Below are positions 5,235-56,857 of a stretch of 64,000 bases of DNA, in pieces. The stretch comes from Niastella populi (GTDB taxonomy: Bacteria; Bacteroidota; Bacteroidia; Chitinophagales; Chitinophagaceae). Where the stretch lies: contig NZ_LWBP01000243.1 of the NCBI RefSeq assembly GCF_002078015.1, forward strand, positions 248,001 through 312,000, in the 5' to 3' direction. Each line of letters begins with the position of its first letter. The stretch's first letter is position 1. The notes below the pieces were generated by a model. That model was not told the origin of the DNA, did no database searches, and was given only the letters and a program-made list of their open reading frames with translations. The translations under genes and the position numbers were made by a program.

Positions 5235-5274
5235 AGTTGACGGGTTAACAAGTTGATGAGTTGACGAGTTAACG
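5235..5274. repeat. 8-bp-phased degenerate tandem repeat (5 units, AGTTGACG type)
   Basis: Five consecutive 8-bp units: AGTTGACG, GGTTAACA, AGTTGATG, AGTTGACG, AGTTAACG. The phase is exact although units differ. It sits in the ccoQ-ccoP spacer. The GTTNANNA core recurs at 31,044-31,075. Confidence 0.85.
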
Positions 5275-5285
5275 GGCGTCTGTTT

Positions 5286-5444
5286 TTAGTCTAAAGGAAT
5301 ACGGCTTACTTCATGTATCTTCTGCTTATCGGTCTTTATAACCCATATAAGCACTACCAGGAAGAACAAACCGAAAATGATGAAAGAGATCAGCGGATAG
5401 ATACTTACACCGGTTATCTTTTCTAAATAATGTATAAACTTCAT
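5286..5444 (-). CDS. ccoQ: CcoQ/FixQ-like small oxidase subunit
   Basis: A 52-residue protein starting MKFIHYLEKITGVSIYP and ending SRIPLD. It has one membrane helix (about residues 15-36) followed by a short charged tail (KTDKQKIHEV). Size, topology and place between ccoNO and ccoP match CcoQ/FixQ, which stabilises the cbb3 complex. The ATG lies 5 bp after the ccoNO stop, so the two are probably translationally linked. Sequence identity to known CcoQ cannot be tested here, so the name rests on context. Confidence 0.8.
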   Translation of the reverse strand: MKFIHYLEKITGVSIYPLISFIIFGLFFLVVLIWVIKTDKQKIHEVSRIPLD

Positions 5445-5449
5445 GGTAC

Positions 5450-7564
5450 TTATTGTTTAGCGGTTGCTTTAATATCTTTTCCAAGGCGTTGCAGGTAGGC
5501 GATCAGCGCTACGATCTCTGCATCTTTGGGCGTTTCTATTTTATCCATCTTCAGGTTGATCCTGATGCCATTGGCCTGTGTCATCAGGTCTTTATTGGCA
5601 ATTTTGTCGAACCCTGCGGGGTAAGGCACACCGAGTTTTTGCATGGCCCTGATCTTTGCCGGTGTAGATGCGGTATCGATCTTGTTATCGAGCAGCCAGC
5701 CATAGGCAGGCATAATAGAACCGGGCGACATAATGCGCGGGTCCATCATATGGTTATAATGCCAGCTGTCGGGGTATTTGCCGCCTTCACGCGCCAGGTC
5801 GGGCCCCGTTCTTTTTGAACCCCACTGGAACGGATGATCGTATACGAATTCGCCGGCTTTGGAGTATTCGCCATAGCGGGCAACCTCATCGCGGAACGGG
5901 CGGATCATTTGCGAGTGACAGGTATAACATCCTTCACGAACATAAATGTCGCGGCCCTGCAGTTCAAGCGGTGTATATGGCCGTACGCTGGCAATGGTTG
6001 GCACATTGCTTTTTACCAGGAAGGTGGGTATCATTTCAATAGCGCCGCCAATGGCTACTACGATCAAACTTAACACCAGCATGGTCATCGGCTTTTTCTC
6101 TATCCAGCGGTGCCAGTATTCTTTTGCATGGCTGGTATGTTTTTCCAGCGGCGCCGCTTCGGCGGCTTCGTTGGCAATGAACCGGCCTTTTTTAATCGTT
6201 TTATACAGGTTGTATACCATTAAGAATGCGCCGATCAGGTATAACGAACCGCCAATGCTGCGGGTAACGTACATAGGAATAATGTGCGTTACTGTTTCAA
6301 GGAACTGGAATTTCAACTGGCCTTCTTCGGTAAATGTCTTCCACATTTGCGCCTGGGTAAAACCAGCCCAGTATAACGGAATGGCATAGATCACAATTCC
6401 TATGGTACCCAGCCAGAAGTGGTTGGTGGCCAGCTTTTTCGAATGCAGCGGTGTGCCCCACATTCTTGGTATCAGCCAGTACAACATCCCGAAGGCCATA
6501 AAACCGTTCCAACCCAAACCGCCGATGTGCACGTGTGCGATCGTCCAGTCGGTAAAGTGAGAAATGGCGTTCACATTTTTCAACGACATCATAGGGCCTT
6601 CAAAAGTGGCCATACCATAACAGGTAACGGCAACCACAAAGAATTTCAGTACGGGTTCTTCACGCACTTTATCCCAGGCCCCGCGTAAAGTGAACAGACC
6701 GTTCAGCATACCGCCCCAACTGGGAGCGATGAGCATAATAGAGAAAACGGTACCCAGCGATTGCGCCCAGTCGGGCAGGGCGGTGTACAACAGGTGGTGC
6801 GGACCGGCCCAGATATAAATAAAGATCAGCGCCCAGAAGTGGATGATGGAAAGGCGGTAAGAATATACCGGCCTGTTGGCTGCCTTTGGCAGAAAATAAT
6901 ACATCAAACCAAGGATGGGCGTGGTGAGAAAGAAAGCCACGGCATTGTGGCCATACCACCATTGCACCAGTGCATCCTGTACACCGGCATACCAGCTATA
7001 GCTTTTAAAGAGTGAAACGGGTATTTCAACAGAGTTTACTATATGCAGCAGCGCTACGGTTACCCAGGTAGCTATATAGAACCAGATAGCTACGTACAGG
7101 TGCCGTTCTCTTCTTTTAATAATGGTGCCAAACATGTTGATGCCGAACACCACCCACACCAGCGTGATGGCAATATCGATTGGCCATTCAAGCTCGGCAT
7201 ATTCTTTACCTGTAGTGTAACCGAGAAGCAGGGTAAGTGCGGCGGCTACGATGATACCCTGCCAGCCCCAGAAGTGCAGCTTGCTTAATTTGTCACTGTA
7301 CATACGCGCTTTACAAAGGCGTTGCAGTGAATAATAAACACCGGTGAAAATACAGTTGCCTACGAAGGCAAAGATCACGGCATTGGTATGCAGGGGGCGT
7401 AAGCGGCCAAAGGTGGTTGGTGCAAAGTTCAGGGTGGCGCCGGGTGCATAGAGCTGAATGGCTGCCCATAAACCGGCTATCATACCCACAATACCCCACA
7501 GCGCCGTGGCGTAGGCGAACTGTTTAACGATCTTGTTGTCATAATGGAATTGCTCTACTTGCAT
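5450..7564 (-). CDS. ccoNO: cbb3-type cytochrome c oxidase, fused subunits I and II (CcoN-CcoO)
   Basis: 704 residues. About residues 1-480 are CcoN with twelve or so helices; visible heme and copper ligand regions are RPLHTNAVIFAF, WYGHNAVAFFLTTP and IAHVHIGGLGWNG. After a linker and one helix (about 492-512), the CcoO part holds a single heme c motif (CYTCH) and the typical stretches SQMIRPFRDEVARYG and FQWGSKRTGPDLAREG, ending near a GSIMPAYGWLL Met ligand region. CcoN and CcoO are separate in proteobacteria; the fusion is known in Bacteroidota. This is the oxygen-reducing core of the oxidase. It lies 38 bp after ccoS. Confidence 0.97.
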   Translation of the reverse strand: MQVEQFHYDNKIVKQFAYATALWGIVGMIAGLWAAIQLYAPGATLNFAPTTFGRLRPLHTNAVIFAFVGNCIFTGVYYSLQRLCKARMYSDKLSKLHFWGWQGIIVAAALTLLLGYTTGKEYAELEWPIDIAITLVWVVFGINMFGTIIKRRERHLYVAIWFYIATWVTVALLHIVNSVEIPVSLFKSYSWYAGVQDALVQWWYGHNAVAFFLTTPILGLMYYFLPKAANRPVYSYRLSIIHFWALIFIYIWAGPHHLLYTALPDWAQSLGTVFSIMLIAPSWGGMLNGLFTLRGAWDKVREEPVLKFFVVAVTCYGMATFEGPMMSLKNVNAISHFTDWTIAHVHIGGLGWNGFMAFGMLYWLIPRMWGTPLHSKKLATNHFWLGTIGIVIYAIPLYWAGFTQAQMWKTFTEEGQLKFQFLETVTHIIPMYVTRSIGGSLYLIGAFLMVYNLYKTIKKGRFIANEAAEAAPLEKHTSHAKEYWHRWIEKKPMTMLVLSLIVVAIGGAIEMIPTFLVKSNVPTIASVRPYTPLELQGRDIYVREGCYTCHSQMIRPFRDEVARYGEYSKAGEFVYDHPFQWGSKRTGPDLAREGGKYPDSWHYNHMMDPRIMSPGSIMPAYGWLLDNKIDTASTPAKIRAMQKLGVPYPAGFDKIANKDLMTQANGIRINLKMDKIETPKDAEIVALIAYLQRLGKDIKATAKQ

Positions 7565-7602
7565 AGGTATATTCTTATTTGAAATTGGTTAGTTGGTTGC
7601 TT

Positions 7603-7767
7603 TTATTCGTTGTTATTGGTGGCAGAAGGTTTGTTATCGAAAAGAATGCGCTGCGGCGGGGAAAAATCATCATCGTATTGCCCGTTACGTACGCTCCAGA
7701 TAAAAGCGGCCAGAAATATGGCGGCTACTGATATACTCGCGATCAAAAGAATGACTATGGCGCTCAT
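7603..7767 (-). CDS. ccoS: cbb3-type oxidase assembly protein CcoS
   Basis: A 54-residue protein starting MSAIVILLIASISVAAIFLA, with one N-terminal membrane helix followed by the family's conserved stretch FIWSVRNGQYDD and a hydrophilic tail. CcoS is needed for cofactor insertion into cbb3 oxidase. It is the first gene after a promoter with two FNR-like boxes and is followed by ccoNO. The ATG is about 20 nt downstream of the predicted transcription start. Confidence 0.92.
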   Translation of the reverse strand: MSAIVILLIASISVAAIFLAAFIWSVRNGQYDDDFSPPQRILFDNKPSATNNNE

Positions 7768-7791
7768 AAAGACGGTTGTTTTACTACACTA

Positions 7792-7799
7792 CAAAAGTA
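7792..7799 (-). promoter_or_regulatory. ccoS promoter -7 element (TACTTTTG)
   Basis: Exact match to the Bacteroidota -7 consensus TAnnTTTG on the minus strand. The predicted transcription start is near 7788, about 20 nt before the ccoS ATG. Its centre is 33 bp from the nearer FNR-like box, the same distance as at ccoI. Confidence 0.7.
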
Positions 7800-7822
7800 T
7801 TTTCTAAGAGAAAGTCGTTTAA

Positions 7823-7834: not shown

Positions 7835-7843
7835 GCGTTGAAA

Positions 7844-7857: not shown

Positions 7858-7871
7858 AAAGCACTAACAGC

Positions 7872-7918: not shown

Positions 7919-7964
7919 TGTGTTTCAATTGATATGAAAAAGTAAAGGCGTGTTTTTCTTATGC

Positions 7965-10361
7965 TCAAAAGCGAAACAGCTTCGCGGCTATATTGCTTGA
8001 GCCGAATGTTACCAGCAGAATGCTGAGTGAACTGGCCGGCATCAGGATGGCGGCAATCATGGGCGATAGCAGGCCCTGAACGGCAAAACTGAGACCTACG
8101 ATATTGTAAAGTATGGAAAGTATAAAACTGGCGATCACTATCTGTTTGTTGGCCCTGCACAGGCGAATGAACCGGTACAGGTTGCGCAACTGCCCGGCCT
8201 CCATGATGGCATCGCTGGCCGGTGTAAAGTTGTTGCAGTCGTCGGTTAGGGCGATGCCCACATTGCTTTGCTTCAGGGCGCCGGCATCGTTGAGGCCGTC
8301 GCCTATCATCATTACGCGTTCACCCCCGTTCTGCAATTTTTTTATGTATTGAAGTTTATCGGCAGGTTGCTGATTGAACAACAGGCTGGCGTCATTGCCT
8401 GTCATCTGTTGCAGGGTTTTCCGTTCGGTTGGGTTATCGCCCGACAATACCGATAACCGGTACCGGGAGGCAAGTGTTTTTAGCAATGGCGCCGCAGATT
8501 CGCGGTAGTGGTTGTGGAATGAAAAATGACCGTATAACTTATCATCGATGGCAACATATACCTCGCCCGCCCGCCCGGCCGAACCCGGGGTACCAACAAT
8601 AAACTGGTGCGATCCCAGCGAGATCCAGTCATCGCCCACCATGCCCTCTATTCCCCTGCCTGGTATTTCATGAAACTCTTCAACGGGCAGGCGTTTTATA
8701 ATTCCGAAATAAGCTGCCAGCGCCCGGCTCAATGGATGGCTCGATTGTGCGGCGAGGCTGGCAATCGCCTGTTGCTGGTGTTTGCTCAATGTAAGTCCCT
8801 TATAATCGATCTCCTGTTGGGCGGTGGTTGTCAGTGTGCCTGTTTTGTCGAAAACTATATGCGTGATGCCGGCCATGTCTTCAATGGCCTGGGCGTTGCG
8901 CATGTACAATTTGTTACGGCCCAGGATGCGCAGGATATTGCCATTGGTGAAGGTATTCGACAGTAATAACGCGCAGGGGCATGCCACTATCAAAACCGCA
9001 GTGATCACGTTCCATACTTTTGAGCTGTCGGTAAATGCCCAGTAAACGGCTGCCGAAGCTGCAATGGTAAATAAAATGTAAGTGAAGTACCTGCTCAGCA
9101 GGTGAACAAATGAAATGCTTTTAGGCTCATTGTTCTTTTTAAATGCATCGGCCGACCATAACCGGGTTAAATAACTTTGGGCTACTTCTTTTATCACCAG
9201 TATCTCTATGGCGCTGCCGGTTTGTTTACCGCCGGCGTACACCATTTCACCCATTTCCTTATTTACGGGTAACGATTCGCCGGTTACAAAACTGTAATCG
9301 ATACAGGCTTTGCCGCGGGTGCAGATGCCATCGGCCGGTATCAGTTCGTTGCTATGGATCAGCAGCGTGTCGCCGGCTTTTATGTCGGGCAATGATACGG
9401 GTGTTTCTTTCCCATCCTTAACCAGTGTGGCCGCTACGGGGAAGTAGGAAGTAAAATCGCGCTCGAACGACAATTGCTGATAGGTTTTATCCTGCAATAC
9501 CCGGCCTACCAGCATAAAGAATACGATCCCCGTCATGGAATCGAAATACCCGGCGCCGGTTCCGCTTATCACCTCGTACAGGCTGCGCGAAAATGTTACG
9601 ATGATGGCAAGCGCAATGGGGGCATCGATATTCAGGAATTTATGCCGTAAACCCTTCCAGCCGCTTTCATAAAACGGCCACGCGCTGTAAAAGAATACGG
9701 GTAATGCCAGCAATACGTTCAACCAGCGAAAGATGCCCTGTAATAGTATTTCGGCTGCTTCGAGGCCCAGGTATTCGGGAAAGCTCAGCAGCATGATATT
9801 GGCAAAACAGAAACCGGCCACGCCCAATTGATAAATAAGGCTTCTTTTTACACCGGGTTTATGGTTTTGCAGGTTCTGTAAACTGATATATGGTTCATAA
9901 CCGATACTGGTTAACAGTTCGGCCAGTTTTTGCAGGGAGAGTTTATTGTGATCATAAATGATACTTATTTCCTTTCGGGTAAAATTTACGGTAGCGCTGA
10001 TAACGGCCGGCTGCAACCGGTGCAGGTTTTCGAGCAGGTACAGGCACGAGCTGCAATGTACCTGCGGAAGGTAAAAAGTTATATGGGTTTGCTGGTCGTT
10101 GCTGAACGTGATCAGTTTCCGTTGAATGGCCTCATCCCCGAGAAAGGCAAATTTGTCTTTCCGTACGGGAATGCGCTGGTTAAGGCCCGGTTTGTCGTTC
10201 AGGGAATAATAATCGCATAATCCGCTTTTATTCAACAACTGGTACACCATTTTACAGCCTTCGCAGCAAAAATGTTTATCTTCAGCGGTAATGTTACCTG
10301 TTGGGCACACTTCGCCGCAATGGAAACACAGCAAATGATTGTGCACGCTGGCTTCAGCCAT
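7965..10361 (-). CDS. ccoI: Heavy-metal P1B-type ATPase CcoI (FixI), copper supply to cbb3 oxidase
   Basis: 798 residues from the MAEAS start. The N-terminus has a Cys-rich zinc-ribbon-like segment (CFHCGEVCP ... FCCEGC), a heavy-metal-associated domain with CSSC, eight predicted helices, the actuator stretch SFVTGES, the ion site CPCAL in helix 6, the phosphorylation motif DKTGTLT and the hinge GDGLNDAGAL. This matches CcoI/FixI, which moves copper needed by cbb3 oxidase. A longer frame reaches an ATG at 10,443-10,445, but that ATG lies inside the distal FNR-like box and upstream of the predicted promoter, so I chose the ATG at 10,359-10,361. Confidence 0.95.
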   Translation of the reverse strand: MAEASVHNHLLCFHCGEVCPTGNITAEDKHFCCEGCKMVYQLLNKSGLCDYYSLNDKPGLNQRIPVRKDKFAFLGDEAIQRKLITFSNDQQTHITFYLPQVHCSSCLYLLENLHRLQPAVISATVNFTRKEISIIYDHNKLSLQKLAELLTSIGYEPYISLQNLQNHKPGVKRSLIYQLGVAGFCFANIMLLSFPEYLGLEAAEILLQGIFRWLNVLLALPVFFYSAWPFYESGWKGLRHKFLNIDAPIALAIIVTFSRSLYEVISGTGAGYFDSMTGIVFFMLVGRVLQDKTYQQLSFERDFTSYFPVAATLVKDGKETPVSLPDIKAGDTLLIHSNELIPADGICTRGKACIDYSFVTGESLPVNKEMGEMVYAGGKQTGSAIEILVIKEVAQSYLTRLWSADAFKKNNEPKSISFVHLLSRYFTYILFTIAASAAVYWAFTDSSKVWNVITAVLIVACPCALLLSNTFTNGNILRILGRNKLYMRNAQAIEDMAGITHIVFDKTGTLTTTAQQEIDYKGLTLSKHQQQAIASLAAQSSHPLSRALAAYFGIIKRLPVEEFHEIPGRGIEGMVGDDWISLGSHQFIVGTPGSAGRAGEVYVAIDDKLYGHFSFHNHYRESAAPLLKTLASRYRLSVLSGDNPTERKTLQQMTGNDASLLFNQQPADKLQYIKKLQNGGERVMMIGDGLNDAGALKQSNVGIALTDDCNNFTPASDAIMEAGQLRNLYRFIRLCRANKQIVIASFILSILYNIVGLSFAVQGLLSPMIAAILMPASSLSILLVTFGSSNIAAKLFRF

Positions 10362-12515: not shown

Positions 12516-12641
12516 AATAAAAAAGACATTGGGGCTGTGAAGTTGCGAGCGGGCGGGGAAAGTGCAGAATGGGGCAGCGGAGGGCTGCGGTATTAAAATG
12601 TGAATGGTGGGCAGGGCGCCAAAATTTCCGGGTTCTCTACT

Positions 12642-12669
12642 CACCATTCACCATTGACCATTCACCTTC
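12642..12669. repeat. 7-bp-phased tandem repeat (CACCATT type)
   Basis: Four 7-bp units: CACCATT, CACCATT, GACCATT, CACCTTC, ending right at the stop of the M20 peptidase gene. A partly complementary TGAATGG lies at 12,601-12,607. The same words recur at 52,077-52,104. Confidence 0.85.
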
Positions 12670-14157: not shown

Positions 14158-14189
14158 CTTGTCAACCTGTCAACTTTTCAACTTGTCAA
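14158..14189. repeat. 8-bp-phased tandem repeat (CTTGTCAA type, 4 units)
   Basis: Units CTTGTCAA, CCTGTCAA, CTTTTCAA, CTTGTCAA in exact 8-bp phase, only 26 bp from the 7-bp array before it. Two different phases in one spacer suggest separate origins. Confidence 0.86.
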
Positions 14190-14232
14190 CATGCCTGTTT
14201 TGTTTCCTTCAGTCACATGTAGTGTACATAAG

Positions 14233-16806: not shown

Positions 16807-16841
16807 GTTGCAGGCTACAAGCTGCATGCTTCAAGCTGCAA
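16807..16841. repeat. 7-bp-phased tandem repeat (GCTGCAA type, 5 units)
   Basis: Units GTTGCAG, GCTACAA, GCTGCAT, GCTTCAA, GCTGCAA in exact 7-bp phase in the LptF/G to hypothetical-protein spacer. Confidence 0.87.
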
Positions 16842-16883
16842 GCGAATTCAAAATACCTGAAAGCAACTGCCTTTTGGGTTTTT

Positions 16884-16915
16884 CCTCGTTGCCATTATGC
16901 CTTGTTGCCACGTTG
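16884..16915. repeat. 8-bp-phased tandem repeat (CCTTGTTG type, 4 units)
   Basis: Units CCTCGTTG, CCATTATG, CCTTGTTG, CCACGTTG in exact 8-bp phase. The same words appear at 19,281-19,310 and inside the rluB coding region near 28,855-28,925. Confidence 0.88.
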
Positions 16916-19220: not shown

Positions 19221-19230
19221 TGCTTTTAGA

Positions 19231-19317
19231 AAAAGGCAAATAGGCAACAAGGCAACGGGGCATAAAGCCAGGATTCCCTCTCGTTGCCTTTATGCCTTGT
19301 TGCCTCGATGCCTTTTT
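19231..19317. repeat. Inverted pair of 8-bp-phased arrays between rpoD and ffh
   Basis: Left arm units GGCAAATA, GGCAACAA, GGCAACGG, GGCATAAA (19,235-19,266); right arm CCTTTATG, CCTTGTTG, CCTCGATG, CCTTTTTC (19,287-19,318). The arms are largely reverse complements and could pair as a long imperfect hairpin around a short loop. The right arm shares words with 16,884-16,915. Confidence 0.88.
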
Positions 19318-20653: not shown

Positions 20654-20716
20654 GGTGCCGGTTCCCCGTTCCCGGTTTCAGGTTTTCCCGGCAAGTGGTT
20701 CCCGGTAACCGGAATC
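20654..20716. repeat. 7-bp-phased tandem repeat, 9 units (GGTTCCC type)
   Basis: Nine units in exact 7-bp phase: GGTGCCG, GTTCCCC, GTTCCCG, GTTTCAG, GTTTTCC, CGGCAAG, TGGTTCC, CGGTAAC, CGGAATC. It begins directly after the ffh stop and is the longest 7-bp array noted here. Confidence 0.85.
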
Positions 20717-21459: not shown

Positions 21460-21491
21460 CATTATCACATTATTCCATTATCGAATTATCA
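21460..21491. repeat. 8-bp-phased tandem repeat (CATTATCA type, 4 units)
   Basis: Units CATTATCA, CATTATTC, CATTATCG, AATTATCA just upstream of the rimM promoter. The AATTATCA word recurs at 45,991-46,022. Confidence 0.87.
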
Positions 21492-21503
21492 CATTGGTTT
21501 TTC

Positions 21504-21519: not shown

Positions 21520-22035
21520 ATGACTAACTATCACAGTGTTGGAAAAATAGTGGCCACTTTCGGCGTAAAGGGAGAGGTGGTACTGCACCACTCATTGGGC
21601 AAGAAAACCTCGCTGAAGGGCCTCGAAACCATTTTTATCGAGGTGAAGAAAGACGAAATGCTGCCCTACTTCCTGGAAAGTACCCGCATCAAAAATGATG
21701 AAGAACTGTTTCTCAAATTCGAAGGCATCGATACAAAGGAAGCCGCCCACCTGCTGATGCAAAAACGCGTTTGGCTGCCGCAGGAGGAGTTCGAGAAGTA
21801 TGTGGCCAAATCGGCCCCTATTATGTTGCTGGGTTTTCATATCATCAATGAGGGCGAAGATATCGGTGAGATCCTGGAGGTGATAGAACAACCGCATCAA
21901 TTGCTTTGCCGTATCGATTTAAAAGGCAGGGAAGCCCTGATACCCGTACATGAGGACTTCCTGCTCAAAATTGATAAAAAGAAGAAACAGGTGCATGTGG
22001 AGCTGCCTGAGGGGCTGCTTGATATCTATAGTTAA
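21520..22035 (+). CDS. rimM: 16S rRNA processing protein RimM
   Basis: 171 residues. N-terminal RimM barrel (YHSVGKIVATFGVKGEVVLHH) and C-terminal PRC-barrel domain (LLGFHIINEGEDIGEILEVIEQPHQLL ... ALIPVHEDFL). RimM helps assemble the 30S head and binds S19. The rpsP-rimM order is widespread, but trmD and rplS, the usual next genes, are absent here. The very short predicted leader suggests leaderless or near-leaderless translation. Confidence 0.95.
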   Translation: MTNYHSVGKIVATFGVKGEVVLHHSLGKKTSLKGLETIFIEVKKDEMLPYFLESTRIKNDEELFLKFEGIDTKEAAHLLMQKRVWLPQEEFEKYVAKSAPIMLLGFHIINEGEDIGEILEVIEQPHQLLCRIDLKGREALIPVHEDFLLKIDKKKKQVHVELPEGLLDIYS

Positions 22036-22153
22036 TGTGCTGATGTGCTGATTGAGGAATTCGGCAGTTCTTATAAGAAGCGAAGTTCACGCGAAAGCAT
22101 TCTCTAAAGCTGTATTCATTAGCATATTAGCACATTAGCAAATTAGCTAATTG
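22034..22153. repeat. Inverted pair of 8-bp-phased arrays after rimM
   Basis: Left arm AATGTGCT, GATGTGCT, GATTGAGG (22,034-22,057); right arm ATTAGCAT, ATTAGCAC, ATTAGCAA, ATTAGCTA (22,118-22,149). The arms are partly complementary around a 60-bp loop and run into the 3' end of the DinB-fold gene. Confidence 0.86.
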
Positions 22154-22697: not shown

Positions 22698-22874
22698 TTG
22701 TTAATATGTTTGGTGCTTTGTGCTTTTACAGATGCAAAGCTACCGGCGGTCTTTTTTTAAAATCTTGGCGCCCGCCAATATTTTTGAATGTAGACGTGTA
22801 ATGCAGGGAAATGATGCGGAAGAAAGGAGTTGATAAGTTGATGGAGGTTGATGATGGTGACAGAGGGTATACAG

Positions 22875-22916
22875 AATGTTGAATGTGGAATATTCAATAT
22901 CGAATGTAGAAGTGAG
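22875..22916. repeat. 7-bp-phased tandem repeat (AATGTTG type, 6 units)
   Basis: Units AATGTTG, AATGTGG, AATATTC, AATATCG, AATGTAG, AAGTGAG in exact phase. Words recur at 41,466-41,479, 41,534-41,547 and, as complement, at 54,392-54,419. Confidence 0.88.
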
Positions 22917-22961
22917 GGGAGGAAATGAAGGCGGGAAATGAGCTGTATTTATATTCGATTT

Positions 22962-22989
22962 GGGCTTTCGGCTTTGGGCTTTTGGCTGT
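22962..22989. repeat. 7-bp-phased tandem repeat (GGGCTTT type, 4 units)
   Basis: Units GGGCTTT, CGGCTTT, GGGCTTT, TGGCTGT. The same words are found in the rluB coding region near 28,783-28,810. Confidence 0.86.
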
Positions 22990-27870: not shown

Positions 27871-29182
27871 GTGTAGCTGTTTTGTTTTTTGTATAAGAGG
27901 CGTTCAGGTATTTAAGGAGGCGTACTTCTTTTTCTGTTAAGAAGCGCCACTTGCCTCTGTCTACATTTTTCTTGGTGAGGTTGGCATACATTACCCTGTC
28001 GAGGTTACGCACATCATACCCCAGGTGTTCGAATATACGGCGAACGATACGGTTGCGGCCGCTGTGGATCTCGATTCCGATAACGCTTTTGTCTTTCGAA
28101 TCGGCGTAGGCCAGCGAATCGGGTGAAACGAAACCGTCTTCGAGCGTAATGCCGTTCAGAAGGGTATCAAAATCTTTTTTTATAAGGGGCTTGTCGAGTT
28201 TTACTTCGTAGATCTTTTTGATCTCGTAGCTGGGGTGCGATAATTTTTGCGCCAGCTCGCCGTCGTTGGTAAGTAACAAAACACCGGTGGTGTTCCGGTC
28301 TAACCGGCCAATGGGATAAACGCGTTCTTCTGTTGCGTTCTTTACAATGTCAAGCACCGTTTTACGGCCTTGCGGGTCTTCGGTGGTGGTGATGAAATCC
28401 TTTGGTTTATTGAGCAGAATGTAAACGAGGTTCCTGCGCAGGAACAGCTTTTTGCCGTTCACTTTGATCTCGTCTTTATCGGAAACCTTATGGCCCGGTT
28501 CAGCGATCTTTTCGCCGTTCACGATCACCTTACCGGCTTTCACCAGGTCGGCTGCATCGCGGCGCGAGCAGATGCCGGCATGGGCGATGAATTTGTTGAG
28601 CGGCATAGCGCCGGCAACGGCGGTTCCACTTGTTTGTGGTTTGCTGTTTGTTGTTTGTGGTTGGGTGCCCGATTTGGCGGTTTGTGGTTTGTTGTTTGTG
28701 GTTTGTGGTTGGCTTCCTGAATTTTTGGCTTTTCCTTTGTCGGCTGTAGCCCTGGCGTAGGTGGAAGCTTTTTCTGTATTGCTTTCGGCTTTCGGCTTAA
28801 AACTTTTGGCTCTATCTGTATTGCCTGCAGCTTGCGGCTTGAAACCTGGGGTTTTCCTGTTGCCTTTATGCCTTGATGCCTCTGTGCCTTGCTCGTTGCC
28901 CCGCTGCCTCGTTGCCTCGTTGCCTTTAAAGCCTTTCCCTGTATTGCGTGAAGCGTTCGGCGTGGAGCTTGCAGCCTTTTTATCGCCATATTCCTTCCTG
29001 CCTCTTTCCGACTGATAACCACCGGCCTGGCCCTGGGCTCTTGCCTGGCGGGCTTCCTGCTTTTTCTTTTCGAAGTATGCTTTGGTTTCCTGGCGAAGCT
29101 TTTTCTTCTCCTGGCGGATGCGTTCTTTCTTTTTGGCGCCGCTGTCGCCTTTACTCATAAATTTCTTAAATCCTTGTGCCAT
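27863..29182 (-). CDS. RsuA/RluB-family pseudouridine synthase with long repeat-derived linker
   Basis: 439 residues from MAQGFKKFMSKG. Residues 1-60 are a basic coiled coil; about 60-190 form a low-complexity linker; an S4 domain follows (MPLNKFIAHAGICSRRDAADLVKAG) and then the catalytic domain with GRLDRNTTGVLLLTNDG. The linker (GNEATRQRGNEQ, QPQTTNNKPQT repeats) is encoded by 7- and 8-bp-phased repeats of the same kinds found between genes. The start was chosen because a perfect -7 element at 29,220-29,227 lies inside the longer 493-codon frame. It modifies rRNA uridines. Confidence 0.92.
   Translation of the reverse strand: MAQGFKKFMSKGDSGAKKKERIRQEKKKLRQETKAYFEKKKQEARQARAQGQAGGYQSERGRKEYGDKKAASSTPNASRNTGKGFKGNEATRQRGNEQGTEASRHKGNRKTPGFKPQAAGNTDRAKSFKPKAESNTEKASTYARATADKGKAKNSGSQPQTTNNKPQTAKSGTQPQTTNSKPQTSGTAVAGAMPLNKFIAHAGICSRRDAADLVKAGKVIVNGEKIAEPGHKVSDKDEIKVNGKKLFLRRNLVYILLNKPKDFITTTEDPQGRKTVLDIVKNATEERVYPIGRLDRNTTGVLLLTNDGELAQKLSHPSYEIKKIYEVKLDKPLIKKDFDTLLNGITLEDGFVSPDSLAYADSKDKSVIGIEIHSGRNRIVRRIFEHLGYDVRNLDRVMYANLTKKNVDRGKWRFLTEKEVRLLKYLNASYTKNKTATRG
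28625..28930. repeat. 7- and 8-bp-phased repeat arrays inside coding sequence
   Basis: On the plus strand, 28,855-28,925 is made mostly of 8-bp words such as CCTTGATG and CCTCGTTG; 28,783-28,810 has GGCTTTC-type 7-bp words; 28,625-28,716 has GTTTGTG/GTTTGTT-type 7-bp words in two runs. All fall in the linker of the rluB-like gene and match intergenic arrays elsewhere. Confidence 0.85.
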
Positions 29183-29933: not shown

Positions 29934-30264
29934 ATTTCCTTATTTTACTGTTTAGATGCCGGGTGAGGTTTTTAGCCTGCGGCAGGGTTTGTTAAAATAT
30001 CCTTTATACGGCATCATAGACCGCGGCCGGGCGTGCAGGTTTAACGTATGTAAGAAATTGTTCGTAGATGGCGGAAATCGCGGATGAGCGGGTTGGGAAA
30101 ATGTTAAGGACGCTTAACGCTGAAGGCTTAACGCTTAAAGCCGGTTCCCGAACCTCTTTGCCGGTTTTGTTTCCGGGGCTTCGCTACAGGGCAGCCGTAA
30201 TTACCCACCTGATTTATAGAGTAACATTTTGTAATTGGACAGGGCGGGGGTATTTTTGAACATC
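29934..30264. other. Divergent intergenic region with a 7-bp array and a DUF2490 promoter
   Basis: 331 bp. It holds a 7-bp-phased array at 30,104-30,138 (TTAAGGA, CGCTTAA, CGCTGAA, GGCTTAA, CGCTTAA) and the promoter at 30,228-30,258. No gene was seen; a 63-codon open frame here has no family features. Confidence 0.75.
30228..30258 (+). promoter_or_regulatory. DUF2490 gene promoter (TTTG-N19-TATTTTTG), near-leaderless
   Basis: -33 TTTG at 30,228-30,231, 19-bp spacer, -7 TATTTTTG at 30,251-30,258. The start should fall at about 30,262-30,265, on or next to the ATG at 30,265. Confidence 0.8.
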
Positions 30265-31043: not shown

Positions 31044-31129
31044 GTTGATAAGTTATTGAGTTATTCAGTTAGTAAGTGCGTGGGCTTGCAATTAATAGCG
31101 AATATAACTCACTAACTCAATAACCCGGT
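31044..31129. repeat. Inverted pair of 8-bp-phased arrays (GTTATTGA / AACTCAAT)
   Basis: Left arm GTTGATAA, GTTATTGA, GTTATTCA, GTTAGTAA (31,044-31,075); right arm AACTCACT, AACTCAAT, AACCCGGT (31,106-31,129). The arms are complementary in kind. The left arm shares words with 5235-5274. Confidence 0.87.
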
Positions 31130-34582: not shown

Positions 34583-34669
34583 TAAGTGAACGCCCTAAAT
34601 GTGTTCTTTTTCTATTTGGTGGTTATGGTTTTAAATTTCCGAAGTAAGAAGTATGCTGCCGTTTAATTT

Positions 34670-34749
34670 CTGATTTTGCGATTTGAAGATTTGGAGATGT
34701 CCCCTGGTTCGAATCGTAAACAAATCTCTAAATCCCGAAATCTTTAAAT
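34670..34749. repeat. Inverted pair of 7-bp-phased arrays (TTGAAGA / AAATCTC)
   Basis: Left arm CTGATTT, TGCGATT, TGAAGAT, TTGGAGA (34,670-34,697); right arm AAATCTC, TAAATCC, CGAAATC, TTTAAAT (34,722-34,749). Arms are complementary in kind. Right-arm words recur at 56,830-56,857. Confidence 0.84.
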
Positions 34750-45858: not shown

Positions 45859-45866
45859 TAACCAAT

Positions 45867-46030
45867 GTGATAATGTGATAATGAGATAATGGGATAATGC
45901 TTTTGCGCCGCCAGGAAGGCACTAATGCCTTTTTAATCCGGTGCGTAGAAACTTACGAGGTTGCAGGTTGTTATATTAAAGTGCATTGTCAATTATCAAA
46001 TTATCAAATTAGCTAATTATCAAATTAAAT
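45867..46030. repeat. Inverted pair of 8-bp-phased arrays in the nuoA-nuoB spacer
   Basis: Left arm GTGATAAT, GTGATAAT, GAGATAAT, GGGATAAT (45,867-45,898); right arm AATTATCA, AATTATCA, AATTAGCT, AATTATCA, AATTAAAT (45,991-46,030). The arms can pair over about 30 bp around a 92-nt loop that has no gene. It lies inside the operon, so it would be transcribed. Confidence 0.9.
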
Positions 46031-46031
46031 T

Positions 46032-46610
46032 ATGGCACGTCCTGTTCAATATAATATTTACGGTCAAACCGATGTGAAACTGGTAAAGGAAGGCCCTGAA
46101 GGGTATATGGGTGAAGGATTCTTTTCAACCAACCTCGATAAAGTGGTTGGGCTGGCCCGCAAGAACTCCATCTGGCCCCTGCCTTTTGCAACTTCCTGTT
46201 GTGGAATTGAATTTATGGCCACTATGGCTTCGCACTACGATCTGGCCCGTTTTGGCTCAGAGCGTGTGGGTTTTTCTCCCCGCCAGTGCGATCTGCTGAT
46301 GGTAATGGGAACCATTGCCAAAAAAATGGCCCCTGTGGTAAAGCAGGTTTACCTGCAAATGGCCGAGCCCCGCTGGGTACTGGCCATGGGCGCCTGCGCC
46401 AGCAGTGGCGGCATCTTCGATACCTACAGCGTATTGCAGGGTATCGATCAGATCATTCCTGTAGATGTGTATGTACCTGGTTGTCCGCCCCGACCCGAAG
46501 CGGTTATCGATGGCATTCTGAAAGTGCAGGAACTTATAGGAAATGAAAGCCTCCGCAGAAGGAACAGCGATAAGTATAAACAATTAATGGAGAGCTACGG
46601 AATACAATAA
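46032..46610 (+). CDS. nuoB: NADH-quinone oxidoreductase subunit B
   Basis: 192 residues. The N2-cluster ligands are visible: the tandem Cys in ATSCCGIEFMAT, a Cys in MGACASSGG and one in VPGCPPRPEA. NuoB carries cluster N2, which passes electrons to quinone. It begins 2 bp after the repeat arm upstream. Confidence 0.97.
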   Translation: MARPVQYNIYGQTDVKLVKEGPEGYMGEGFFSTNLDKVVGLARKNSIWPLPFATSCCGIEFMATMASHYDLARFGSERVGFSPRQCDLLMVMGTIAKKMAPVVKQVYLQMAEPRWVLAMGACASSGGIFDTYSVLQGIDQIIPVDVYVPGCPPRPEAVIDGILKVQELIGNESLRRRNSDKYKQLMESYGIQ

Positions 46611-46611
46611 C

Positions 46612-46643
46612 AATTAGCTAATGTAATAATTAGCTGATGTGAT
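46612..46643. repeat. 8-bp-phased tandem repeat in the nuoB-nuoC spacer
   Basis: Units AATTAGCT, AATGTAAT, AATTAGCT, GATGTGAT beginning one base after the nuoB stop. Confidence 0.87.
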
Positions 46644-46714
46644 AATTGAACTCCGTAATCTCGTCTTAATAATAAAATCTAAAATGTCTGCCGCCACACG
46701 GCGGGGATAGTTAT

Positions 46715-48472: not shown

Positions 48473-48512
48473 GCTAATGTGATAATTCGATAAGGTGCTA
48501 ATGTGCTAATGG
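48473..48512. repeat. 8-bp-phased tandem repeat in the nuoD-nuoE spacer (5 units)
   Basis: Units GCTAATGT, GATAATTC, GATAAGGT, GCTAATGT, GCTAATGG in exact 8-bp phase, starting 2 bp after the nuoD stop. Confidence 0.88.
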
Positions 48513-48568: not shown

Positions 48569-49069
48569 GTGGCTCAATTTTCTGCAGAGAAACTGGCAAA
48601 AGTAAACGAGATCATTGCACGCTATCCGCAAGGAAAGCAAAAAAGTGCATTGATACCGGTACTGCATATTGCACAGGAAGAATTTGGTGGCTGGTTAAGT
48701 GCTGAAACCATGGATTATGTGGCTTCGATACTCAAAATAGAACCTATTGAAGTGTACGAAGTGGCCACGTTCTATAGCATGTACAACCTGAAACCTGTTG
48801 GTAAATACGTGTTTGAAGTTTGCCAAACCGGTCCGTGCATGTTGAACGGCAGCGACGATATAATTGAATATATAAAGAACAAACTGGGCATTAAAGTAGG
48901 GGAAACCACCGCCGATGGTTTGTTTACGCTGAAAACAGTGGAATGTTTGGGCGCCTGTGGTTATGCTCCCATGATGCAGTTGGGTAAACATTACCGCGAG
49001 CACCTGACGAAAGAAAAGATAGATGCTATTATAGATGAGTGTGAGAGGAATGCAGTAACAAATAACTAA
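48569..49069 (+). CDS. nuoE: NADH-quinone oxidoreductase subunit E (GTG start)
   Basis: 166 residues. The thioredoxin-like 2Fe-2S domain has its four Cys in CQTGPCMLNG and CLGACGYAPMM (cluster N1a). NuoE pairs with NuoF in the NADH-oxidising module. The start is a GTG preceded by an AAAG-rich sequence; no in-frame ATG lies close upstream, and the next one (MDYVASIL) would cut off the helical N-terminus. Confidence 0.95.
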   Translation: MAQFSAEKLAKVNEIIARYPQGKQKSALIPVLHIAQEEFGGWLSAETMDYVASILKIEPIEVYEVATFYSMYNLKPVGKYVFEVCQTGPCMLNGSDDIIEYIKNKLGIKVGETTADGLFTLKTVECLGACGYAPMMQLGKHYREHLTKEKIDAIIDECERNAVTNN

Positions 49070-49126
49070 GATATCAGTTACCAGTTGCCAGGTCCCGGGC
49101 CTGCCCCGATAAAGTTGGGGTTTACG

Positions 49127-49154
49127 GGAAACTGGAAACCGGTAACAGGCAACG
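49127..49154. repeat. 7-bp-phased tandem repeat in the nuoE-nuoF spacer
   Basis: Units GGAAACT, GGAAACC, GGTAACA, GGCAACG; a partly complementary arm (ACCAGTTGCC) lies at 49,080-49,089. Words resemble those at 20,654-20,716. Confidence 0.82.
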
Positions 49155-50526: not shown

Positions 50527-50893
50527 CCCCCTGAAGGGGAGTAAAGGGCATCTGAAACAAAAGGAACATATGAAAAAGAAAATGTTCTACGGTGCTTCTC
50601 ACTTGCTCTTAAAGTTAAGAAGTTGCGCGGGAACATGACAGAGGCAGAAGTTGTTCTTTGGAAATATTTGAGACAACATCCTTTGGGATATAAGTTCAGG
50701 CGACAACATCCATTAGGAATACATATAGTGGATTTTTATTGCCACAAACGTGGAAAGGTTTACAAATGAAGAAGTTTTGAAGAAAAAGGAAGTGGTAATA
50801 GGAAAAATAATATTATTAATCAACGAACGAGTAGGAACTGCTTAAAGTTTCGCGAGTTCAAAAAGCCCCTTTAGGGGTTTGGGGTGTGGTTTT
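50527..50893. mobile_element. Candidate DUF559-bearing palindromic element in the nuo operon
   Basis: A 367-bp spacer. Left end has CCCCCTGAAGGGG (50,528-50,540), right end GCCCCTTTAGGGG (50,866-50,878); each is a palindrome and the two are similar in inverted view (CCCCTRAAGGGG). Between them lies the broken DUF559 gene. The layout suggests a small insertion that carried an endonuclease gene. That it is mobile is inference. Confidence 0.55.
50570..50845 (+). pseudogene. Decayed DUF559 (PD-(D/E)XK-type) endonuclease gene
   Basis: Three pieces in three frames: MKKKMFYGAS from 50,570, then (after a frameshift near 50,597-50,602) KVKKLRGNMTEAEVVLWKYL and GYKFRRQHPLGIHIVDFYCH up to a stop at 50,768-50,770, then FTNEEVLKKKEVVIGKII from 50,759 to a stop at 50,843-50,845. 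In intact DUF559 proteins (about 120 residues) some 35-40 residues, including the catalytic core after VDFYC, lie between the last two pieces, so an internal deletion has occurred. The protein cannot be active. It sits on the same strand as nuo. Confidence 0.85.
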
Positions 50894-51985: not shown

Positions 51986-52076
51986 AGTTTTAAGCGTTCT
52001 GAATAAAAGAAGAGAAGGAAGTAAGAAGTACGAGGGAAGAAAAGAAATTAAAGATTTGGAATGGCGGCGGCCAATT

Positions 52077-52104
52077 GACCATTGACCATTCACCATTGAC
52101 GATA
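52077..52104. repeat. 7-bp-phased tandem repeat in the nuoG-nuoH spacer (GACCATT type)
   Basis: Units GACCATT, GACCATT, CACCATT, GACGATA; words shared with 12,642-12,669. A looser GAAGTAA/GAAGTAC run lies at about 52,012-52,040. Confidence 0.86.
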
Positions 52105-53848: not shown

Positions 53849-53866
53849 CAGAACCAACAAGCTGCA

Positions 53867-54364: not shown

Positions 54365-54391
54365 ATAACCGACGGATCCCGAACACTTCGG

Positions 54392-54419
54392 CGTTCGACA
54401 TTCAATATTCGATATTAAA
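54392..54419. repeat. 7-bp-phased tandem repeat in the nuoJ-nuoK spacer
   Basis: Units CGTTCGA, CATTCAA, TATTCGA, TATTAAA; complement of the AATGTCG/AATATCG words at 22,875 and 41,466. Confidence 0.86.
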
Positions 54420-54426
54420 AGAGATT

Positions 54427-54756
54427 ATGTTAATTGAAAGATATATCTACCTGGCTATCGCACTTTTTTGTATAGGTATTGTGGGAGTGCTGGCCCGCCG
54501 GAACGCCATCATCATTTTCATGTGCATCGAGCTTATGCTGAATGCCGTAAACCTGTTGCTGGTTGCATTTTCAAAAATGCATCATGCGGCCGGTGTTGGT
54601 AAAGCTGCTGCAGCCGGTATCGACGGACAGCTATTCGTATTCTTCATTATGGTGGTGGCTGCTGCGGAAGTGAGTGTGGGCCTTGCCATTATTGTAATGA
54701 TGTATCGCAATACGCATTCGGTGGATGTAAATTTTTTAAACAGGTTAAAACACTAA
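54427..54756 (+). CDS. nuoK: NADH-quinone oxidoreductase subunit K
   Basis: 109 residues, three helices. Conserved Glu in [19 protein letters not shown] and in [19 protein letters not shown], both in the proton path. An insert of small residues ([15 protein letters not shown]) lies in the loop between helices 2 and 3. Confidence 0.96.
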
Positions 54757-54766
54757 AAGGCGAAAT

Positions 54767-54882
54767 GCTCAAGGCTTAAGGCTGAACGCCACACCCCGCA
54801 CTTCGAGGTGTTTGGGTTATAGCGGAAAGCCTGAATTTCGGAGAATAGCCTTAAGCGTTTAGCCTTTAGCCTTCAGCTTAAA
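54767..54882. repeat. Inverted pair of 7-bp-phased arrays in the nuoK-nuoL spacer
   Basis: Left arm GCTCAAG, GCTTAAG, GCTGAAC (54,767-54,787); right arm GCCTTAA, GCGTTTA, GCCTTTA, GCCTTCA, GCTTAAA (54,848-54,882), ending 3 bp before the nuoL ATG. Arms are complementary around a 60-nt loop. Words recur at 30,104-30,138. Confidence 0.88.
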
Positions 54883-54885
54883 AAT

Positions 54886-56802
54886 ATGAACGTGTTACAA
54901 TTAGTTTGGTTGGTTCCCTTTTTTCCACTGGTTGGCTTTCTGATCAATGGCTTGCTCAGAAAACAACTTTCCAAACCGTTGATCAGTATTATCGGCAGCG
55001 GTATGGTATTGGCCTCGTTTATTGTGAGTGTGCTGCTTTTTACCGAGGTAAAAAACGGGAACACCCATGTAGCCAACCTGTTTGACTTTATCAGCTTCGG
55101 ACAATTATCGATTCCCTTCGCCTTTCAGATAGACCAGCTTTCTTCCCTCTTTCTGCTGATCATTACCGGTATCGGTTTTCTGATACATGTATATTCAGCG
55201 GCGTATATGCACGAAGAGCGCAATGAGCATTTCGGTCGCTTCTTCTGTTACCTCAACCTGTTCGTGTTCTCCATGTTGCTGCTCGTACTGGGCGCCAACT
55301 ATGTGATCATGTTCATCGGTTGGGAAGGTGTTGGTTTGTGTTCTTACCTCCTTATCGGATACTGGTTCAAGAATACCGAATACAACAATGCGGCCAAGAA
55401 AGCCTTTATCATGAACCGTATCGGCGACCTCGGCTTTCTGATCGCTATCTTCTGGCTTATTTCGAAACTGGGTACTGTTACATATACTACACCTGAGGGT
55501 ACCGGAGTGTTCGATCTGTACAGCAAATTATCACCTGTTGATATTACCGGTATTACCATTTTGCTGTTTGTAGGCGCTACCGGTAAAAGTGCGCAAATTC
55601 CCTTATATACCTGGCTGCCCGATGCGATGGCGGGTCCAACCCCGGTTTCGGCGTTGATCCACGCGGCAACGATGGTTACCGCCGGTATTTATATGATCGC
55701 GCGCAGCAACATTTTATATACCCTGGCGCCAACTACCCAAAGCCTGGTGGCAGCCATTGGCCTCGCAACCGCACTGTTTGCGGCAACCATTGCCATTAAA
55801 CAGAACGATATTAAAAAAGTACTGGCTTACAGTACCGTTAGCCAGCTGGGTTACATGTTCCTCGGTTTGGGCGTAGGCGCTTACACCGGAGCGGTATTCC
55901 ATGTAATGACGCACGCGTTCTTCAAAGCCCTGTTGTTCCTTGGAGCTGGTTCTGTAATTCACGCCATGCACCACGAACAGGATATTCGCCGTATGGGCGG
56001 GCTGGCAAAGAAATTACCGGTCACGCACTTCACTTTCCTGATGGGTTGTATCGCCATTGCGGGTATCTTTCCCTTCAGCGGCTTCTTTTCAAAAGATGAG
56101 ATATTAGCGGCTGCATATGCCAAAGACCCCATGTATTATTACCTGGGTGTTGCCGGCGCTGTAATGACCGCTTTCTATATGTTCCGGTTATACGCTACCA
56201 CCTTCCTGGGTAAATTCCGCGGTACCGAAGAACAAAAGCATCACCTGCATGAAAGCCCTGCTGCCATGACCATTCCATTGATCGTGCTGGCTATCCTGAG
56301 TGTTGTGGGTGGTTTTCTGGGAACGCCCGAAGTACTGCATATGGGCGAGCACAGGCTGGAGCATTTCCTGGCGCCGGTATTCGAGGCCTCGGCCGGTTTA
56401 AAAGAAGCGCATCACCTCGATCATAATACCGAGTATATGCTGATGGGGGTTGCCATGGCACTGGCCATTATTGCCATACTTGTTGCCCTGTTCCGTTACA
56501 GCAAAAAGCCTGAAGTGCATGAACCCGCAGGTTTCGGAAAAGTACTGGCCGACAAATGGTACATCGATGAGCTGTATAGTTTCGTAGTGGTAAAACCGAT
56601 GAACTGGCTGGCTAAATTCCTGAATAATATTTTTGAAAAGAGAATAGTTGACTGGCTGGTGAACGGTGTTGGCCGTGCGGTGAATTACACAAGCCGCCAG
56701 GTGCGCCTGTTACAAAGCGGGCTGGTTGGCAACTATGTGCTGTTGATGGTGTTGAGCATGCTGGCGCTGTTTGTAGTGACGTTCTTTTTTAATAAGAAAT
56801 AG
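54886..56802 (+). CDS. nuoL: NADH-quinone oxidoreductase subunit L
   Basis: 638 residues with about fifteen helices and the C-terminal lateral helix region. Antiporter-like core motifs: FIGWEGVGLCSYLLIGYW, GATGKSAQIPLYTWLPDAMAGPTPVSALIHAATMVTAG and KALLFLGAGSVIHAMHHEQDIRRMGG. It is the distal proton-pumping subunit. The ATG directly follows a repeat arm that could hide it in a stem. Confidence 0.97.
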   Translation: MNVLQLVWLVPFFPLVGFLINGLLRKQLSKPLISIIGSGMVLASFIVSVLLFTEVKNGNTHVANLFDFISFGQLSIPFAFQIDQLSSLFLLIITGIGFLIHVYSAAYMHEERNEHFGRFFCYLNLFVFSMLLLVLGANYVIMFIGWEGVGLCSYLLIGYWFKNTEYNNAAKKAFIMNRIGDLGFLIAIFWLISKLGTVTYTTPEGTGVFDLYSKLSPVDITGITILLFVGATGKSAQIPLYTWLPDAMAGPTPVSALIHAATMVTAGIYMIARSNILYTLAPTTQSLVAAIGLATALFAATIAIKQNDIKKVLAYSTVSQLGYMFLGLGVGAYTGAVFHVMTHAFFKALLFLGAGSVIHAMHHEQDIRRMGGLAKKLPVTHFTFLMGCIAIAGIFPFSGFFSKDEILAAAYAKDPMYYYLGVAGAVMTAFYMFRLYATTFLGKFRGTEEQKHHLHESPAAMTIPLIVLAILSVVGGFLGTPEVLHMGEHRLEHFLAPVFEASAGLKEAHHLDHNTEYMLMGVAMALAIIAILVALFRYSKKPEVHEPAGFGKVLADKWYIDELYSFVVVKPMNWLAKFLNNIFEKRIVDWLVNGVGRAVNYTSRQVRLLQSGLVGNYVLLMVLSMLALFVVTFFFNKK

Positions 56803-56829
56803 TTAGCGGCAAGGAGAGATACAATCCAT

Positions 56830-56857
56830 AAATCTAGAAATCAGAAATCAAGAAATT
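56830..56857. repeat. 7-bp-phased tandem repeat in the nuoL-nuoM spacer (GAAATCA type)
   Basis: Units AAATCTA, GAAATCA, GAAATCA, AGAAATT, ending 3 bp before the nuoM ATG. Related words at 34,722-34,749. Confidence 0.86.

Follow-up and report, generated by a model that had tools for sequence, protein, structure and literature searches.

The window considered here is a 64-kb stretch (46.7% G+C) of the 8.6-Mb genome of the soil bacterium Niastella populi (genome G000, contig C242, positions 248001-312000); its NuoF is 97% identical to that of Niastella yeongjuensis and 96% identical to that of Longitalea luteola. Many spacers between its genes carry short tandem arrays whose units differ in their letters while the distance from unit to unit stays at 7 or 8 bp. 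The locus raises the question of what these arrays are and how their phase is kept while their letters drift. Many of them are probably arms, whether intact or decayed, that belong to several families of short intergenic foldback elements. Such an element would consist of a 7- or 8-bp unit repeated n times, a core, and the reverse complement of the unit repeated n times. The sequence shows strict periods of 7 and 8, more inverted pairing than a strict null predicts and a fixed order of the words. Two families are dispersed with a related core, and orthologous spacers have the element, lack it or carry another word.

Periods of 7 and 8 bp

Genes were called by a simple greedy rule for open reading frames (ORFs) of at least 100 aa and spacers were taken as the gaps between such ORFs, which gave 44 window spacers of at least 30 b (7,607 b in total). 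Compared with 200 dinucleotide shuffles, these spacers have raised self-matches of 0.310 at lag 7 (0.266 in the shuffles; z 8.9) and 0.303 at lag 8 (z 7.4). There is no excess at lags 4, 5, 9, 10, 11 and 12. A weak excess is also seen at lag 6 (z 2.8) and lag 3 (z 2.7), and the excesses at lags 14 and 21 (z 3.3 and 4.8) are harmonics of 7. Clusters, defined as 13 matches in 16, number 10 at lag 7 and eight at lag 8 versus about 0.05 each in the shuffles, with none at lags 2-6 and 9-12; the 56 kb of coding sequence used for comparison holds five at lag 7 and three at lag 8. An earlier sequence-only reading of this DNA had named a lack of excess at 7 and 8 over neighbouring lags as the outcome that would speak against it. 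That test was passed (z 8.9 and 7.4), because the spacers have both the excess and the clusters relative to shuffles and coding sequence.

The same spectrum is found in 464 kb of the genome with 311 spacers, sampled as 21 pieces: the window and 20 added stretches, ten of which were chosen for a GTTGAC array and ten regardless of arrays. Its spacers contain 86 arrays of period 7 and 93 of period 8, and at most eight at any other lag from 3 to 13, with harmonics at lags 14 and 16. The ten stretches chosen regardless of arrays give 18 at lag 7 and 16 at lag 8 versus at most two elsewhere. Periods 7 and 8 alone stand out, and both are common. By region, arrays are found in 21 of 131 spacers of the freely picked stretches, 70 of 136 of the GTTGAC-picked stretches and 18 of 44 in the window. 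A pattern search of the genome for GTTGAC gave 62 matches and a reversed control pattern 54; since the control is nearly equal, the search reflects the abundance of 8-bp arrays, not that word alone.

The strict phase of 7 or 8 bp reported by the sequence-only reading is thus borne out by the lag spectrum of both window and genome sample, and its contrast between these arrays and the uniform heptamers of cyanobacteria is correct. Arrays lie where that reading placed them, except that the one at 56,830 is present with mixed 8/7/8 spacing rather than a strict 7-bp phase and the one at 16,884 is weak (71% matches, from 16,898). Arrays do recur from spacer to spacer, but the count of at least 24 array-bearing spacers was too high (16 or 18 of 44 by two thresholds), and the arrays mostly have 3-6 units rather than the 3-9 claimed.

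Inverted arms and dispersed families

Arrays of the same period that are reverse complements of each other are frequent within one spacer (e.g., AAGGCT/AGCCTT and AGTTATTn/TAACTCAn). Among the listed pairs with an inverted similarity of at least 0.7, the gap between arms is mostly 11-141 nt and the longest is 373. Of 176 arrays compared with other array-bearing spacers as the null, 35 have an inverted partner at p<=1/31, where about 6 would be expected, and 65 have one at p<=0.1, where the expectation is about 17; same-strand partners number 17 and 33 at these thresholds. The words also keep a fixed order. In all 11 spacers carrying both orientations of the first word, GnWAAT is on the left and ATTWnC on the right; the four spacers with GTTTRT and its complement likewise all have GTTTRT on the left, so that the order is the same in 15 of 15 over two words (p 6e-5). 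This counts against chance palindromes, since those would run either way. The sequence-only reading described the arrays and missed that many of them form one arm of an inverted pair with a fixed order.

Two families are dispersed through the genome. Family A has arms of GnTAATnn/ATTAnCnn, and its core contains GAAGCTCACGCGTAAGC and CCTGTATT. The model R1 of this family, which uses sequence alone, was built from 12 copies of the N. populi genome, including the window copy, and therefore favours that genome. R1 matches the window at 22039-22129 (E 5.9e-18 over 96 kb). With 150 candidates scored per genome, there are at least 53 matches in G000, 27 in G005 (three sites counted on both strands), 15 in G006, 11 in G002, six in G001 and two in G003, and none in G004 or in four genomes of other families of the order. 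The second family, GATTTnnn/AAATCnnn, has at least 40 matches at no fewer than 37 places in G000, query included (40 of 68 candidates scored). These copy numbers are lower bounds because 40 or 150 candidates were scored per genome. Forty copies of family A were fetched, 27 of them from G000; 39 are 86-160 bp long and one is a tandem of 242 bp, with some ends shortened by the rule used. No flank related to another copy's flank is found in 28 of the 40. The 12 with related flanks include four same-site pairs in two genomes and one pair of tandem neighbours. Some spacers have both arms and core in common. The sequence-only reading was right that the same words turn up at distant places; for two families these words are the shared arms of dispersed elements with a related core, which it missed. 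No dispersed core family was shown for the window arrays other than the family A and GATTT copies.

In two respects these families resemble miniature inverted-repeat transposable elements (MITEs). Terminal inverted repeats are present in families A and GATTT, though not in every array, and copies are dispersed without a transposase gene (at least 53 family A matches and at least 37 GATTT places). The elements are not filed as MITEs because no target duplication was seen and no parent is known. By eye, partial R1 matches (150 candidates scored per genome) show no pairing at transposon distance.

The arrays and arms of the window are as follows.

22035..22152, no strand: family A copy (8-bp arms GnTAAT/ATTAnC plus core) in the convergent rimM/DinB_2 spacer
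34661..34749, no strand: copy of the 8-bp GATTTnnn/AAATCnnn family (C242:282661-282749), 72% over query 8-96
45864..45899, plus: left arm, 8-bp GATAATGn, nuoA-nuoB spacer
45991..46027, minus: right arm, 8-bp ATTATCAA, nuoA-nuoB spacer, inverted similarity 0.77 (AATGTGAT x4 at 45,864 pairs with AATTATCA x4 at 45,991)
46608..46647, plus: 8/16-bp array, nuoB-nuoC spacer, below the array threshold of the nuo comparison
48475..48511, plus: 8-bp array GnTAATGT, nuoD-nuoE spacer
49056..49099, plus: left 7-bp arm GTTACCA/GTTGCCA, nuoE-nuoF, first bases inside the nuoE ORF
49124..49153, minus: right 7-bp arm, nuoE-nuoF spacer
54756..54789, plus: left 7-bp arm AAGGCTn, nuoK-nuoL spacer, inverted similarity 0.79
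54847..54877, minus: right 7-bp arm AGCCTTn, nuoK-nuoL spacer
19230..19262, plus: left 8-bp arm AAGGCAnn, upstream of ffh
19285..19314, minus: right 8-bp arm TGCCTnnn, upstream of ffh
31051..31077, plus: left 8-bp arm AGTTATTn, inverted similarity 0.85
31105..31124, minus: right 8-bp arm TAACTCAn
5236..5274, plus: 8-bp array GTTRACnn, a word found in tandem elsewhere in the genome
14091..14132, plus: 7-bp array CAATKGG, 74% within the end of a called ORF
14160..14193, minus: 8-bp array TGTCAACn
12641..12666, minus: 7-bp array CACCATT
16811..16843, no strand: 7-bp array CAnGCTn
20658..20685, no strand: 7-bp array CCGGTTC
21460..21495, minus: 8-bp array CATTATCA
22874..22911, plus: 7-bp array GAATGTT
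22959..22987, no strand: 7-bp array TTTnGGC
30110..30141, no strand: 7-bp array ACGCTTA
52074..52103, minus: 7-bp array ATTGACC/ATTCACC, nuoG-nuoH spacer, presence varying among nine genomes
54387..54416, minus: 7-bp array TTCGATA, one arm (two arrays there in G005)
28632..28925, minus: 7- and 8-bp arrays within a long N-terminal part of an rluB-like ORF

If the called start of the rluB-like ORF is right, its arrays precede the S4 domain (from residue 247) and the pseudouridine synthase domain. Several family A copies (loci L140, L141, L145, L147, L148 and L150, in the right-hand part of the match) have a second short hairpin, CCCGGCTTTAGTCGGGA-like, within their right arm or next to it, and some spacers resemble a chimera of two families.

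All comparisons of orthologous spacers were made between species, and the nine genus genomes differ by 0.23-0.43 at fourfold sites. An array scored as absent from a nuo spacer is one below the array threshold, and the spacer is not always short. In 10 of 13 nuo spacers an array is present in some of the nine genomes and not in others; the nuoA-nuoB spacer has one in all nine and two spacers have none in any. Between nuoE and nuoF there are hairpins at L115, L116, L119 and L120 and a 36-nt spacer at L114, L117, L118 and L121, and between nuoK and nuoL both arms of several relatives carry AACGC/GCGTT words. The rimM/DinB_2 spacer holds at least three different words over nine genomes, or does not exist. 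Family A matches there in the window (E 6e-18) and in G007 (E 2.5e-9). The same site has GTTGAC units in G002, GTTGAT units in G004, GTTGAC and other units in G005, 7-bp GTTRCAn arms in G009, GnTAAT arms with a different core in G006 and a possible remnant in G001, and in G003 the stop codons of the two genes overlap. The spacer after a thiolase gene has the GATTT element in the window, a similar hairpin in G003 and 26-51 nt in six others; the next gene was not found in G006 and G009.

Among relatives, the nuo region of 80 was surveyed, and at 43 loci at least one spacer has a cluster at lag 7 or 8. Locus L014 has many clusters whatever the lag, and some lag-9 clusters are present at L042 and L060; elsewhere, lags 3-6 and 9-13 give rare single clusters. 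Density was measured as arrays scoring at least 11 at periods 7 and 8 per 10 kb of spacer. It is 16.6 in the own-genome sample, 21.4 in the genus (eight stretches), 11.3 in other genera of the family (23 stretches, two of them from one genome, G022, and fetched around Y1_Tnp matches), 2.5 in other orders of the class (ten stretches) and 1.3 in other classes of the phylum (26 stretches), and at other lags it is 0 to 1.7 in all groups. Within the sampled Bacteroidota the 7/8 arrays are shown to be concentrated in the Chitinophagaceae.

Some nuo spacers hold other sequence as well. In the nuoF-nuoG spacer of the window (50527-50878), CCCCT/AGGGG palindromes flank what is left of an ORF resembling a DUF559 endonuclease. 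The ORF at this place in L114 (G001) has a DUF559 match (E 1e-34), long versions are also found at L116 and L120, and five relatives have a spacer of 24-39 nt. Extra ORFs lie between nuoD and nuoE at L009 (253 aa, 8682-9443; no Pfam match) and at L116 (340 aa).

Word letters, free letters and rival explanations

The arms of family A show which letters of the unit are kept. Of the 40 copies, 34 have GnTAAT/ATTAnC arms, three have GnAAAT/ATTTnC arms, one is discordant (one unit each) and two are undecided. In the nuoA-nuoB spacer, G003 has AAAT units (three on the left, two on the right) and no TAAT units; of the nine genomes, six have only TAAT units and two have both types. Agreement between arms was scored unit by unit outward from the core, with arms of different copies as the null (500 shuffles, which ignore the relatedness of copies, so that subfamilies could raise arm agreement without selection). 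The W of GnWAAT agrees in 94 of 102 comparisons (null 0.79; no shuffle as high) and the n in 66 of 102 (null 0.50; one shuffle as high). For the two free letters, agreement is found in 17 of 102 comparisons, less than the 0.27 seen for different copies. Dropping one of each related pair gives 82 of 89 for W, 61 of 89 for n and 17 of 89 for the free letters. Agreement of n is clearest when the kth unit is set against the kth, and W agrees in all registers. Within one arm, neighbouring units have free letters alike in 40 of 191 cases (expected share 0.23). Loci L216 (G000) and L247 (G005) have related upstream flanks (81% over 108 nt); in their left units W differs in 4 of 4, the free pairs are the same in 3 of 4 and n is the same in 4 of 4. 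In family A, then, the two arms agree in their word letters and not in their free letters, which suggests that it is the word and its spacing that are kept, rather than units being copied. The words appear to change together while the free letters stay, suggesting that something holds the word. Of the two causes offered by the sequence-only reading, ongoing local copying is not supported by these neighbouring units or by the array columns, which diverge no faster than others. Selection on spacing fares better for family A, where word columns agree between arms and free columns do not. An impression of hypermutable arms, gained by eye from one pair of spacers, was dropped because array columns are no faster over five genome pairs (array versus other columns: L119-L120, 0.195/0.345; L118-L121, 0.205/0.201; L117-L121, 0.037/0.146; L117-L118, 0.169/0.170; window-L115, 0.245/0.296).

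The arrays might instead be ordinary long simple sequence repeats, in which slippage favours units of 7-8 bp, copies decay and no element exists. Mrazek et al. (2007) reportedly proposed that polymerase slippage favours such unit sizes. Many arrays are single, and by eye the nuoE-nuoF hairpins of L119 and L120 differ by one unit. Among long repeats, heptamers are the most frequent class in the majority of genomes studied and have been linked to the stretch contacting DNA polymerase (as reported in PMC4679880 and PMC4692102). Slippage predicts no inverted partners, no order of 15 in 15, no cores shared by distant sites and no agreement of words between arms, and the free letters of neighbouring family A units are alike no more often than chance predicts (40 of 191). 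Over 141 arrays, variation is also concentrated in some columns to a greater degree than a detection-matched simulation gives (z 9.1), a weak point since the null has no genealogy of units. Slippage as the whole explanation is unlikely. A related possibility is that one arm templates the other, through a folded single strand or a cruciform, and units are passed along the array. Switches of the word in both arms together are what such foldback copying would produce, yet it would carry the free letters too, and these agree no more often than expected, either between arms (17 of 102) or between neighbours (40 of 191); the L216/L247 pair, in which every left W differs and most free pairs are the same, and the ordinary divergence of array columns speak against it as well. 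It was demoted to a rival because the free letters are not carried along, and is now very unlikely.

The hairpins could also act as RNA, as terminators, stabilisers of mRNA or intercistronic zippers kept by selection on transcript folding. There are long stems in the nuo operon spacers, some closing over terminator-like cores, and agreement of word letters between arms is as expected of a stem. A stem kept as RNA should favour G.U pairs. When G.T and A.C were scored alike on the transcript strand in helices between co-directional genes, the array helices had 121 G.T versus 147 A.C, whereas 187 compact hairpins of array-free spacers had 258 versus 193 (contrast p 0.002, which is optimistic as pairs within one stem are not independent; some relatives, e.g., L067 and L130, were possibly counted twice under two locus names). 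In addition, none of the three gene contexts is free of arrays (10 of 43 spacers between divergent genes have them, as do 91 of the remaining 219), relatives have spacers without them, and no Rfam match was found in the window at the gathering threshold. The shortage between divergent genes is as expected of inserts that disturb promoters. A role as RNA is quite unlikely, and the lack of a G.U preference supports the view that pairing, if it matters, matters in DNA. Alternatively, the elements might be repeats of the repetitive extragenic palindrome (REP) and bacterial interspersed mosaic element (BIME) type, moved by a RAYT (Y1) transposase. Each of the ten genus genomes (G000-G009) has one strong Y1_Tnp match (E about 1e-22 to 1e-19), with weaker matches besides in some; by eye, arrays lie near Y1_Tnp in G000, G001 and G005, and the lack of target duplication is as expected of this type. 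A search of 59 genomes found no tracking of Y1_Tnp with arrays outside the genus, and RAYT was rejected as the driver: judged from one or two stretches per genome, G011, G024 and G034 have a strong match and no 7/8 arrays, and G012, G017 and G028 have arrays and no strong match. The elements are also larger than REPs, and the family A consensus lacks GTAG and CGTC. Movement by RAYT is highly improbable. Strong Y1_Tnp matches with arrays in the neighbouring spacers were noted at L158 (2724-3245; G000, contig C145), L160 and L161, each beside an ORF that we take to be aroA-like.

Several points weigh against reading the arrays as arms of foldback elements. No inverted partner is found at p<=0.1 for 111 of 176 arrays, and GTTGAC arrays are single (14 spacers) or same-strand (three spacers) with no inverted pair in the count. 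The nuoA-nuoB spacer has at least 69 further matches in the genome (40 of 267 candidates scored), all confined to query 1-51 or 114-170, i.e., the arms and at most 16 nt beyond; the nuoK-nuoL hairpin has one full-length relative. With arrays masked, a core relative is found in 11 of 100 array spacers versus 7 of 143 array-free spacers of the 464-kb sample. Target duplication is absent, as the mean shared flank word of 40 family A copies is 3.55 versus 3.50 in the null, and no autonomous parent or mobilising enzyme was found. Between nuoM and nuoN, where six genomes have 21-22 nt and the window 60 nt, G003 and G007 share a 102-nt hairpin (86 of 102 columns alike), which can be explained by several losses, transfer or repeated insertion. 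Three further stretches of the same family have a density of 2.1 arrays per 10 kb of spacer. Over 83 inverted pairs of all families the free columns neither avoid nor favour pairing, and outside family A they pair in 26 of 103 cases (expected 26.0) and 43 of 165 (expected 35.2). Convergent spacers of the own genome have 12 G.T and 34 A.C, on an arbitrary strand, and the optimistic p-value and the relatedness of copies given above belong here too.

Foldback elements nevertheless remain the probable explanation for many of the arrays. The unit would be a word of about 6 bp plus one or two free letters, and the word would pair or be read with that of the other arm. If selection or a reading factor holds word and pitch, the letters of the free columns would drift while the phase stays. 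A DNA process that makes no target duplication would add and remove elements, and these would persist at places where a hairpin is nearly harmless. A trans-acting reader with a pitch of 7-8 bp, such as a repeating DNA-binding protein or a polymerase, might recognise or write strings of 6-bp words, although this is doubtful. Such a reader would use many words in the Chitinophagaceae and one in Xanthomonas, as inverted pairs in gene gaps, and paired strings of 7/8-bp words would then be a general kind of bacterial DNA and not unrelated repeat families. The dominance of 7-bp repeats in so many bacteria is an old open point. This one genus offers many words, two unit lengths, sites with and without the element and a cultured species, so that one can test directly how the 7/8 pitch and the paired arms arose. 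The elements account for part of the spacer content, and congeners carry different hairpins between the same genes.

Comparison with known repeat systems

Eukaryotic foldback transposons have inverted termini of short direct repeats and a variable middle, and are much larger. In the open-licence literature searched, no description of the present elements in Chitinophagaceae was found. Heptanucleotide simple repeats share the excess of 7-bp units, but a similar number are 8 bp here. That class consists of direct arrays without partner or core, whereas part of the arrays here have inverted partners and shared cores; single ones also exist. The TAACTGA repeats of Beggiatoaceae, cyanobacteria and some Bacteroidetes (PMC4679880) are likewise intergenic 7-bp arrays with a sporadic distribution, and 7-nt indels between relatives are common to both. 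They consist of one direct word that in Beggiatoaceae lies mostly just upstream of start codons, whereas the Niastella words are degenerate, stand in inverted pairs and occur in all gene contexts. TAACTGA occurs 48 times in the 464-kb sample, in tandem never at 7 bp and twice at 8-bp spacing.

REP and BIME repeats (PMC3733652) are similar in being short, dispersed intergenic palindromes in inverted pairs with variable spacers. REPs are 20-40 bp long with GTAG or CGTC tags, whereas the Niastella elements are longer, and the family A consensus has neither tag. BrickBuilt, a MITE of Porphyromonas gingivalis (PMC4596501), is also found in the Bacteroidota, is intergenic and dispersed, and has tandem repeats in an inverted-repeat element. 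Its body is made of 23-bp direct repeats with short inverted ends, whereas in Niastella the repeats are the inverted arms themselves and are 7 or 8 bp long.

The closest published case found is that of the Xanthomonas (GGGANTN)n/GGGAATC arrays (PMC4692102). Two genomes carry 186 and 183 arrays, with 70 and 75 convergent inverted pairs; the arrays are intergenic, 7-8% lie between divergent genes, and four units are most common. The likeness, which is one of description, lies in degenerate 7-bp units with conserved and free columns and in intergenic, oriented inverted pairs. The Xanthomonas repeats were studied as G-quadruplex DNA, whereas the Niastella words are mostly not G-rich. Xanthomonas has one word and a period of 7, whereas Niastella has many words, periods of both 7 and 8, cores that define families, and different words at one site in congeners.

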